A stretch of 41,791 nt of DNA from Desulfurellaceae bacterium (GTDB lineage: Bacteria > Desulfobacterota > Binatia > Bin18). Shown one piece after another: positions 33,190 through 36,397 of this stretch; positions within the stretch are counted from its first letter, which is position 1; every line of letters starts with the position of its first letter. Made by a program: the position numbers and the translations under genes. The stretch is from assembly GCA_021296095.1 (NCBI GenBank), contig JAGWBB010000006.1:56743-98533 (forward strand), given 5' to 3'. Under the pieces are notes generated by a model. That model was not told the origin of the DNA. It saw nothing but the letters and a program-made list of their open reading frames with translations, and did not search any database.

Positions 33190-33555
33190 TCAGGGCTGGG
33201 GCTTCCACCTGGGCGGCGTCCAGCGCTTGGGACCCGCCCAGCGATAGGTGGTCAGATCAACCTTGCCGTGGCGACTGAAGCGGACGCCCTCGTCTTCGAG
33301 CAGCCAGCGCTGCTGTTCGGCCCGCACAAGGTCACCGCGAATGCTGATGCCGCCCGAGGCATTAATGACCCGTTGCCAGGGCACTCTCCGGGACAGCGGC
33401 GGGGGCAGATGGCGCAGGGCCGTACCGACCGCCCGCGGCGCCCGGGGTGCGCCAAGCAGGGCGGCCACCTGTCCGTAGGTCACCACTTTGCCTTTTGGAA
33501 CGCGGGCGACCAGACGGTAGACGGCCGTATGAAAGGCGGGCAGACGGGCGGCCAT
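33190..33555 (-). CDS. Alkyltransferase-like protein (ATL), MGMT fold with Trp in place of Cys
   Basis: A 121-residue protein with the methylguanine methyltransferase DNA-binding fold: FHTAVYRLVARVPKGKVVTYGQVAALLG, then VGTALRHLPPPL. The active-site motif PCHR is replaced by P59-W60-Q61-R62 (VPWQRVINASGGIS), so no methyl acceptor Cys remains. ATLs flip O6-alkylguanines and route them to nucleotide excision repair. It starts 4 bp after the stop of the NTF2-like gene, and follows a putative alkylation-response operon headed by an ECF sigma factor. It is convergent with the CoA-transferase, the stops 4 bp apart. Confidence 0.9.
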   Translation of the reverse strand: MAARLPAFHTAVYRLVARVPKGKVVTYGQVAALLGAPRAPRAVGTALRHLPPPLSRRVPWQRVINASGGISIRGDLVRAEQQRWLLEDEGVRFSRHGKVDLTTYRWAGPKRWTPPRWKPQP

Positions 33556-33559
33556 GGGC

Positions 33560-33973
33560 TCAGGCTTCAGCCCCGATCTGCTGCATCAGGCCCAGGGCGT
33601 CCCAGGCTACCCAGGCTTCGGCAATCCGGCCATCGGCAATCCGATAGATGGCAATGCCCACCACCGATACGTTCTTGCCGCTGGGGGCAATACCCATGAA
33701 ATCGCCCCGATGGGTACCCCGAAACGTCCAGCGTCCGACCACCCGATCCTCCTCGGCAAGCAGATCTTTGATCTGAAAATGCACATTCGGAAAACCACCC
33801 CGGACCGTTGAGACAATTTGTTTCACGTCCTCCGGGCCGCCGCCAAAATCATAGCCGGTCGGATAATGGCTGACATAATCGGGCGCGATCAGCTCGTCGA
33901 TCAACTCAATCCGACCCGCGTTCAAGACCTCGTCAAAATAGCGACGGAAGACGGCTTTATTGGCCTCTGACAT
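33560..33973 (-). CDS. SnoaL-like (ester cyclase) family protein
   Basis: A 137-residue NTF2-like protein of the SnoaL polyketide-cyclase type: AVFRRYFDEVLNAGRIELIDELI, APDYVSHYP, FPNVHFQIKDLLAEEDRVVG, a RWTFRGTHRGDFMGIAPSGK strand pair, and VGIAIYRIADGRIAEAWVAWD. The catalytic acid and His pattern of SnoaL cannot be verified. GAGGGAGAGGAACGCC precedes the ATG at 33973. It lies 82 bp downstream of the sigma-regulator/OGT fusion and 4 bp ahead of ATL, so it is probably part of that operon; its link to DNA repair is unclear. Confidence 0.8.
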   Translation of the reverse strand: MSEANKAVFRRYFDEVLNAGRIELIDELIAPDYVSHYPTGYDFGGGPEDVKQIVSTVRGGFPNVHFQIKDLLAEEDRVVGRWTFRGTHRGDFMGIAPSGKNVSVVGIAIYRIADGRIAEAWVAWDALGLMQQIGAEA

Positions 33974-34055
33974 GGCGTTCCTCTCCCTCTTGATTGCTGT
34001 ACACAAAAGGCAGGACTTGCACAAGACTGGCCCACGCCGGACGCGGGTGGGCCGC

Positions 34056-35033
34056 TCAGTCCGGAACGAACAGCGGGCTCGCGTCCACGGGGTGCAGCTC
34101 GGGCTGACACCCGGGGCAGGGCTGATAGCCGAGTTCGCGGGCCCGGGCCAGGGACGGGATCAACACCCGTTCGGCGGCGGTCTGAGCGTGTAGGTCGGCG
34201 CAGTCGGGCCGACACAGGCGGGAGTGGGAACGCCAGCCCACATACATCCGGGCAGCGGCAATGGCCAAGCCCCGTCGGGTGTGTCTGACCGGAATGCCCT
34301 CGGTCTCAAGAATGGCGCGTTTGGTATCGACCAGATTGCCGGCATAGCCGGTCAGGCGCCCGTCGCTGCCCAACACCCGATGACACGGAATATGCAGAGG
34401 TACCGGGTTGTGACGCAGGGCCTGGGCGACCGCGCGGACCGCGCTGGGTTGGCCGATGGTGTCGGCCAGGCTCTGATAGCTGATGACCGTACCGTAGGGA
34501 ATGGCGGCGGTGGCCCGCAGCACGCGGCGCTGAAAGTCGCTGCGCATCAGGCGATCATCCAGCGTCCAGTCCAGCGTCCGGCGTGTGCCGGTAAAATACT
34601 CGTCAAGCTGTTGGACGAGGACGGCGGTCTCCGGCCCGGCCTGCTCGGGCCTGAAATCGTGCTCCAGGCGCGCGAGCTGGGTTGAGGCTTGATTTGGACG
34701 TGTGAACTCGACAAAAACCACGCCTTTGTCTGTCGCGCCGAGCAGCAGGTCGCCGACCGGCGAGTGCCATAGCTGGACGCGCAACCGCGGACGCTGCGGC
34801 TCGGCCAGCCGCGCCTCAAGCGCCTGCCGGGCGCGCCGCAGGCCCTCAGCTTCTTTGCCGGGAACGGGCCAGTCGTGTAAGCGGGCGCGTAGCGTCCGAT
34901 ACTGTTCCAACAGCTCGCTACACACACCACAGCCGGCCACATGCCGGCGCACCTGCTGGCTCAGCTCGGCCTGCGCCTCGCCAAACGCCTCGGCAATCAG
35001 CCGGTTTTCTGAAAATCTGCACGTTTTCGCCAT
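34056..35033 (-). CDS. Anti-sigma zinc finger / O6-alkylguanine-DNA methyltransferase / Ada-type Zn module fusion
   Basis: A 325-residue three-part protein. Residues ~8-60 carry an anti-sigma zinc-finger signature H31-x3-C35-x2-C38. Residues ~85-255 are an O6-alkylguanine methyltransferase with its RNase-like lead (LWHSPVGDLLLGATDKG) and active site P216-C217-H218-R219, then RLTGYAGNL. Residues ~262-315 match the Ada methylphosphotriester Zn domain (YVGWRSHSRLCRPDC...GYQPCPGC), with four Cys C274, C278, C306, C309. In standard Ada the Zn module is N-terminal and linked to an AraC-type HTH; here order is reversed and no HTH is seen. The start is 3 bp after the ECF sigma stop, with AGGAGGA as RBS. 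I infer a repair enzyme that doubles as an alkylation-responsive anti-sigma factor. Confidence 0.85.
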   Translation of the reverse strand: MAKTCRFSENRLIAEAFGEAQAELSQQVRRHVAGCGVCSELLEQYRTLRARLHDWPVPGKEAEGLRRARQALEARLAEPQRPRLRVQLWHSPVGDLLLGATDKGVVFVEFTRPNQASTQLARLEHDFRPEQAGPETAVLVQQLDEYFTGTRRTLDWTLDDRLMRSDFQRRVLRATAAIPYGTVISYQSLADTIGQPSAVRAVAQALRHNPVPLHIPCHRVLGSDGRLTGYAGNLVDTKRAILETEGIPVRHTRRGLAIAAARMYVGWRSHSRLCRPDCADLHAQTAAERVLIPSLARARELGYQPCPGCQPELHPVDASPLFVPD

Positions 35034-35036
35034 AGC

Positions 35037-35585
35037 CTAATCCTCCTGGTGCCGAGCAAGGGCGAGCCGCAGCTTGCGCAGCGCCTGATAGACATGAGCC
35101 CGCGCGGTCTCTTGTGAACACGCCAGATTGCCGGCGATGACCTGATAGTCCAGCCCCTCAAACTGGCGTTGGACAAGCGCGGTGCGCTGCCGGAAGGGGA
35201 GTCTTTCAATCGTGGCAAGCAAGGTCCGGGTCGTCTCATTGGCGGCCATGGTTTCCTCCATATCGGCCCCGTTTCCAGGCGGCGAGGCGGTGTCTTCGGC
35301 TTGCTCGTGGTTGCGCGTCACCACCACCCGGCCTCTGCGTTGGCGGTCACGCGCGTAGTTCTTGGACACGTTGATAGCGATCCGCATCAACCAGGCCCGA
35401 TAGTTCATATCAGCCCGCCGATTCTGCGCTCGTCCATATGCCCGGTAGGCGCGCAAGAACGTCTCCTGAAACAGATCCTGAGCGTCGTGTGGATCCCGGG
35501 TAAAGCGCAACAGATAGCCATACACCGCGCCCTGGTGGCGCGTGACCAACTCGGCAAAGGCCCGCTGTTCGGTATGTGTCGCCAT
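35037..35585 (-). CDS. ECF-type RNA polymerase sigma factor
   Basis: A 182-residue ECF (group IV) sigma factor. Region 2: FAELVTRHQGAVYGYLLRFT, then DPHDAQDLFQETFLRAYRAY and NYRAWLMRIAINVSKNYARD. Region 4: LPFRQRTALVQRQFEGLDYQVIAGNLACSQETARAHVYQALRKLR (given as positions ~130-175). A linker of about 40 acidic residues lies between. No Shine-Dalgarno is clear before the ATG. It is divergent from a secreted-protein gene with 74 bp between starts, so this gap should hold its autoregulated promoter. The next gene, 3 bp on, is its presumed anti-sigma factor fused to DNA alkyltransferase modules. Confidence 0.92.
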   Translation of the reverse strand: MATHTEQRAFAELVTRHQGAVYGYLLRFTRDPHDAQDLFQETFLRAYRAYGRAQNRRADMNYRAWLMRIAINVSKNYARDRQRRGRVVVTRNHEQAEDTASPPGNGADMEETMAANETTRTLLATIERLPFRQRTALVQRQFEGLDYQVIAGNLACSQETARAHVYQALRKLRLALARHQED

Positions 35586-35659
35586 GTGTAGAGAAAGACA
35601 CTTCAGCCGGCCGTTTGTGAAAACGCTTGCGCCGTCGAGAACCAGACAGTATATGCTGC

Positions 35660-36397
35660 ATGGGTATGCTTGCGTTCGCCACCTCGGTCCTGATGGCCTG
35701 GGCGCTCGCCACGCTCTTGGCCTCCCCGCCAGCGGCGGACCGCTTGCCGGCGGCCGACTTCTTCCCCCTGGCCATGCACAATACCTGGACCCATGAGGTC
35801 AGGTTCTCGGGCGGGGACTATCACTACTACATGACCGAGACCGTCATCAAAGACAACTGGCCGCTGCTCGGCCAACAGTCCTACGTGGTGGCCGAGGACT
35901 ACGAACCGCTCACCGACCGCGCCCCCGAGGCCAGAAGCACAGTTGCCTATTTTCGCAAAAACGGGTTTCTCTACCGCTACCCGTGGCTGGACTCCGAGGG
36001 CGACCGCATCTGGGACACCCGGCTGGGTCAGGGGCTGGATCAAATCATGCCGAGTCCGTTTGTGGAGAGAACACGCTGGCGCATGGACCTGAGCACCCAG
36101 GTCATGGCCAGCGGCGGACAGAGCAGCTCATCGGCCACGGCCTGGATCGATCCGAGTGCCATACAGGTACCGGCCGGCACCTTTCGCAACTGCCTCAGAG
36201 TCGAAACGCTGACCGTCAGCTTCGTGCCGGACCCGCGCAAAAAGAGCGCGGAATTTGCGCTACGGCATACCGAGTGGTACGCCCGGGGCGTCGGCCTAGT
36301 TAAAGCCATCAGCAGCGAAGGCACGGCGCAAAAAAGTGTCACACGGCTGCTGACGTATCGGATTCGTGAAAAGGAGCACCCCAATCACCATGACTGA
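35660..36397 (+). CDS. Secreted hypothetical protein
   Basis: I do not recognise a named family. The 245-residue product begins with a signal-peptide-like hydrophobic stretch (MLAFATSVLMAWALATLLAS), with likely cleavage after residues ~24-28. The mature part starts ADFFPLAMHNTWTHEVRF, an opening seen in uncharacterised exported proteins of deltaproteobacterial type, and continues beta-rich to WYARGVGLVKAISSEG. ATG 35660 (or 35666, two codons later) is the plausible start; the RBS is weak. It is divergent from the ECF sigma gene and overlaps the nitroreductase start by 8 bp, so both may be in one transcript, possibly driven by a sigma-dependent divergent promoter. Confidence 0.6.
   Translation: MGMLAFATSVLMAWALATLLASPPAADRLPAADFFPLAMHNTWTHEVRFSGGDYHYYMTETVIKDNWPLLGQQSYVVAEDYEPLTDRAPEARSTVAYFRKNGFLYRYPWLDSEGDRIWDTRLGQGLDQIMPSPFVERTRWRMDLSTQVMASGGQSSSSATAWIDPSAIQVPAGTFRNCLRVETLTVSFVPDPRKKSAEFALRHTEWYARGVGLVKAISSEGTAQKSVTRLLTYRIREKEHPNHHD

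Follow-up and report, generated by a model that had tools for sequence, protein, structure and literature searches.

A DNA repair methyltransferase that probably carries the brake on its own sigma factor in uncultured soil bacteria

Can a DNA lesion act directly as the signal for an ECF sigma factor, read by the very protein that repairs it? The question is raised by a gene pair at positions 34056–35585, reverse strand, of the window, by which we mean the whole 41,791-nucleotide stretch of Desulfurellaceae DNA analysed here. The first gene (35037–35585, reverse strand) encodes a 182-residue ECF sigma factor with regions 2 and 4 (Pfam Sigma70_r2, 1.3e-16, and r4_2, 2.3e-11, both above the curated cut-offs; NCBIfam agrees), and its TAG stop codon is separated by a 3-bp gap (GCT) from the ATG of a 325-residue protein (34056–35033, reverse strand). 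The initial annotation had described this second protein as a fusion of an anti-sigma domain, an O6-alkylguanine methyltransferase and a four-Cys Ada module, in that order and 3 bp behind an ECF sigma gene, and its coordinates, domains and domain order agree with Pfam and with the homologue alignment. We consider it likely that the fusion is a soluble zinc anti-sigma factor which holds the adjacent sigma factor, and that methylation of its repair module releases the sigma factor to drive its own operon.

Dozens of independent genomes, including two single-contig ones, show this layout again, and chance or misassembly was rejected on this ground. Sigma and fusion genes also share one reading frame across the TAG-GCT junction, as happens in 5 of the 66 homologous pairs; this is probably chance. 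Downstream of the fusion follow genes for a SnoaL/NTF2-like protein (33560–33985, reverse strand; Pfam) and an alkyltransferase-like protein, ATL (33190–33555, reverse strand; Pfam DNA_binding_1, 2.2e-25), in which PWQR takes the place of PCHR. Both are kept within the family and are probably the third and fourth genes of the operon. A DUF3108-like gene (35648–36397, forward strand) diverges from the sigma gene, an upstream position that is conserved across the family.

The repair modules are the most readily recognized parts of the fusion. Residues 87–247 (34293–34775, reverse strand) match DNA_binding_1 (4.4e-31, residues 166–247) and Methyltransf_1N (1.5e-6, residues 87–159), both above the curated cut-offs, and this part has M. 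tuberculosis OGT as a structural match (Z 18.3). The acceptor C217 lies in a PCHR motif, as had been claimed, and Y186, R200, N209, C217, H218 and E245 are invariant among homologues. PCHR combined with these Tyr, Arg, Asn and Glu residues is the sequence signature of an active O6-alkylguanine-DNA methyltransferase, which the module is predicted to be. The phosphotriester module (residues 260–312; 34098–34256, reverse strand) has C274, C278, C306 and C309 at the positions first proposed and matches Ada_Zn_binding at 6.4e-6, again above the curated cut-off. Pfam found no HTH in the fusion, in keeping with the initial annotation. Strictly defined, Ada has its Ada-Zn domain at the N-terminus and an AraC-type HTH behind it; the protein is thus not an Ada, though it may work like one. 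A search of its own genome found no second Ada-Zn domain; the fusion carries the sole one found there and in most family members, and may therefore stand in for Ada in its family. Rokubacteria have separate, stronger Ada-Zn domains besides the fusion, which counts against the reading we favour.

Whether the N-terminus (residues 1–80; 34794–35033, reverse strand) is an anti-sigma domain is less evident from the window's own protein, where zf-HC2 reaches 13.4 bits and stays below the Pfam cut-off of 22.2, another point against the favoured reading. The zinc ligands H31, C35 and C38 are as originally proposed, but a fourth, C5, had been overlooked. The full motif is C5-x25-H31-x3-C35-x2-C38, a spacing which we take to be that of RsrA. 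It is kept in 57/57 distinct full-form homologues, and none of C5, H31, C35, C38, C217, C274, C278, C306 and C309 varies among 13 full-form homologues, so that these nine positions are not a matter of chance. Among 24 diverse homologous anti-sigma domains, 19 are matched by zf-HC2 and 18 by NCBIfam antisig_RsrA (best 3.8e-7 in each case), with ChrR and other anti-sigma models ranking behind the RsrA model. When a profile of the domain was compared with PDB sequences, the top five matches were RslA, ChrR (two entries), DdvA and RsiW, each of them weak (E 0.09–0.25), yet all ECF anti-sigma factors. Homologue matches and ligand conservation together identify the N-terminus as an anti-sigma domain, which bears out, by way of the homologues, the assignment first made for residues 1–60. 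AlphaFold places four helices at residues 9–16, 22–34, 36–54 and 59–77 (pLDDT mostly >80). A study of coevolution between ECF sigma factors and class I anti-sigma domains (ASDI) has helix 1 touching sigma region 4 and helix 4 touching region 2 (PMC7406223), and both helices are present here. The fusion has Hx3Cx2C, preceded by a further ligand, in an N-terminal domain of four helices, and its gene adjoins an ECF sigma gene; by sequence and context it classifies as a soluble, cytoplasmic class I zinc anti-sigma factor of the RsrA/ChrR type.

Such a domain could itself be the sensor. The fusion would then be a true anti-sigma factor responding to attack, by redox chemistry or by electrophiles, on the C5/H31/C35/C38 zinc site, with methyltransferase and Ada module as repair cargo. 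All four ligands, in RsrA-like spacing and invariant in the 57 full forms, fit this well, redox sensing is common among soluble zinc ASDIs (PMC7406223), and the DinB/ClbS-like proteins among the candidate targets discussed below would suit thiol-reactive electrophiles. What speaks against it is that the zinc site can be missing within the same sigma clade: in family f9 the partner lacks the zinc ligands and keeps methyltransferase and Ada-Zn, and in family f8 it consists of a degenerate anti-sigma region and the methyltransferase, with neither zinc ligands nor Ada-Zn. Across 66 distinct sigma–partner pairs the zinc motif is present in 57 and its ligands are lost in nine, Ada-Zn is present in 58, and the PCHR acceptor is found in 65/65 partners reaching that region. 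As the methyltransferase is constant and the zinc site is not, we argue that the former carries the signal and is the likelier sensor. A stand-alone ogt gene among the regulon members likewise tells against redox sensing, which we regard as unlikely.

At least two further ECF lineages in Rokubacteria adjoin genes for OGT-AdaZn or OGT proteins with no zinc anti-sigma domain, frequently with a 4-nt overlap. Pairing of sigma factor and OGT thus seems recurrent, and a design in which the lesion is the inducer may have arisen repeatedly.

A GTDB genome scan located the carriers among MAGs of Candidatus Binatia (Binatota), the group of the window's own organism, and Rokubacteria (Methylomirabilota), uncultured soil bacteria. 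Nearly every genome of the window's own family has the full form, and full-length matches also occur in family f11 and in one genome labelled just 'same phylum'; the gene pair is present in 47 of the 95 Methylomirabilota genomes searched (E <1e-70). Wherever a full-form locus extends far enough at its 5′ end, the fusion is immediately preceded by its cognate sigma gene, in Rokubacteria commonly with a 4-nt stop/start overlap. Conversely, a sigma-profile search of 58 relatives delimited a clade of 29 genes at ≥151 bits, the next best match scoring 126, and a methyltransferase gene neighbours each of the 29 unless the contig breaks off there. The proposed co-occurrence therefore holds in both search directions and in two phyla, and of the three outcomes that the initial annotation had named as fatal, two, absence of an anti-sigma domain and absence of co-occurrence, were not what was found. 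A search of 398 Pseudomonadota genomes, run without a positive control, gave no match at E <= 1e-40, and no full-length relative was found in a plasmid collection. One Binatia-like contig, CAMBFS010000032.1, is deposited under the title of a 'Klebsiella pneumoniae' MAG and is probably mislabelled.

The element TTTCAC-N15-GTGTCT lies 10 nt upstream of the sigma ATG (35596–35622, reverse strand) and precedes the sigma genes of both phyla. Across 57 distinct sigma loci it is exact in 36 and has one mismatch in 14 (at most one mismatch in 50/57), which dinucleotide-shuffled controls never equalled. We predict that it is an autoregulatory ECF promoter, and a new one. Its −10 element usually ends 1–14 nt before the start codon, so near that the sigma mRNA is probably leaderless.

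Further sites were located by pattern searches. The only exact TTTCAC-N15-GTGTC match in the window's own genome is the sigma-gene promoter, and no copy of the motif was found ahead of the SnoaL, ATL and divergent genes in the window. In the 95 Methylomirabilota genomes TTTCAC-N13-CGGTGTCT occurs 67 times, against twice for the reversed pattern, and nearly all 67 sites fall in genomes with the system. Targets other than sigma genes are a DUF2652 gene (19), a small-membrane-protein gene immediately 3′ of the fusion (9), proteins of the DinB/ClbS-like kind (DinB_2/DUF1706; 5) and Usp proteins (2). The DUF2652 protein, with its 'ADISGFT' start, is the commonest distal promoter target in Rokubacteria; that most sites outside the operon precede a gene with no assigned function counts against alkylation sensing. 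In the Binatia set the seven exact sites outside sigma promoters are about equal in number to the six of the reversed control. Three of these seven lie 44–46 bp before orthologous stand-alone ogt genes in three genomes, and the strongest case for alkylation as the signal comes from this repair gene under what appears to be the same promoter. The window's own genome has a second, stand-alone ogt that lacks the motif carried by its orthologues in these three relatives; it is split by a frameshift, either as a pseudogene or through an assembly error. Just downstream of the motif-driven ogt there is a weak Ada-Zn match (G009:C229 544–672; G006:C49 130045–130116), so an OGT-Ada fusion may also have been the earlier form of this gene.

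The physical contact between the partners, the subject of the third such outcome, was approached by structure prediction, with sigma factor and fusion given to AlphaFold as one chain and the TAG read as Gln. At full length the domains folded well (pTM 0.57) and no confident docking was obtained from the single chain, nor was it with sigma factor plus fusion residues 1–165 (pTM 0.52); the sigma domains were arranged unlike those of known sigma/anti-sigma complexes. Domain-wise coevolution did not single out the anti-sigma domain, the sigma factor correlating alike with the OGT N-domain. We count these results against the favoured reading, and the lack of a predicted interface would be compatible with a fusion that is a constitutive negative-feedback inhibitor and repair enzyme, the sigma factor being set elsewhere, for instance by transcription, and methylation having no regulatory effect. 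Control elsewhere is also what the literature assumes for the group ECF122, which a 2022 review lists without a cognate anti-sigma factor and with a conserved 6-O-methylguanine methyltransferase (MGMT) neighbour (PMC8999054). The strict retention of the methyl-acceptor cysteines is at odds with such an arrangement, and signal-responsive ECF systems usually combine a fused sensor with an autoregulatory promoter. We think it improbable, more so than redox sensing.

Release of the sigma factor by alkylation, the reading we prefer, would run as follows. The anti-sigma domain would hold the adjacent sigma factor inactive until O6-alkylguanine gives up its alkyl group to C217 of the methyltransferase, a DNA phosphotriester gives up a methyl group to C274 of the Ada module, or both. 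Alkylated methyltransferases change conformation and lose stability, and the irreversible modification would similarly alter or destabilize the fusion and so free the sigma factor. Acting at TTTCAC-N15-GTGTCT, freed sigma factor would transcribe its own operon, made up of sigma factor, fusion and probably the SnoaL and ATL genes. In relatives it would also act on other genes for repair or detoxification, with ogt, DinB/ClbS-like and DUF2652 genes as the targets. Fresh, unmethylated fusion could then repair more damage and recapture the sigma factor, closing the loop. What the sequences show is domain content, ligand conservation, strict pairing, promoter and regulon sites; sigma binding, release by methyl transfer to C217 or C274 and recapture are inferred. 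The methylated fusion might instead stay with the sigma factor and guide it to promoters in an Ada-like manner, without release. The Zn module of E. coli Ada does bind DNA better once methylated, which lends this some appeal, but an HTH is missing from the fusion, and its anti-sigma fold is the kind found in inhibitors; we judge it very unlikely.

Release by methylation would mean that DNA methylation damage switches on its own repair genes through a repair protein that carries the brake, probably in a way not described before. We also lean, with rather better than even confidence, towards the lesion itself being the inducer: a suicide DNA methyltransferase would double as an anti-sigma factor, one sigma factor being freed per repair event, apart from SOS and from Ada/AraC. 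If true, DNA alkylation would become a new input for ECF systems, with the repair reaction itself as the read-out, and the adaptive response would have a second architecture that is not based on Ada. It would also offer a testable mechanism for a sigma group said to lack an anti-sigma factor, and the pair might be put to use as a genetic sensor that counts alkylation repair one for one. The hosts suit such a system: PMC8262859 predicts Binatota to be methylotrophs using methylamine and chloromethane, so that methylating chemistry may be an everyday matter for them.

The initial annotation knew of no described example. For the fusion this stands, none having been found in the literature searched; the sigma–MGMT neighbourhood, however, is already known from ECF122 (PMC8999054). 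That literature yielded no account of the fusion with its anti-sigma domain, of the promoter or of the regulon, the 2021 ECF classification lying outside the search. ECF122, as that classification is relayed in PMC8999054, has the same ECF gene and methyltransferase neighbour, a likeness by neighbourhood alone; the review's account of the group has it without an anti-sigma factor, whereas here the methyltransferase itself carries the anti-sigma domain. RsrA/SigR of Streptomyces and ChrR/SigE of Rhodobacter have in common with the fusion the anti-sigma fold, the HxxxCxxC ligands, solubility and an immediately upstream ECF partner. ChrR, like the fusion, has a C-terminal sensor fused to it, but this is a cupin and not a suicide DNA alkyltransferase with an Ada domain, and RsrA is without a C-terminal extension of this kind. 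E. coli Ada likewise unites both methyl-acceptor activities in one polypeptide and autoregulates its own gene. In Ada, an N-terminal Ada-Zn domain is joined to an AraC-type HTH, while in the fusion Ada-Zn is C-terminal and the HTH is missing, and its output, unlike that of Ada, would depend on an ECF sigma factor and on another promoter.
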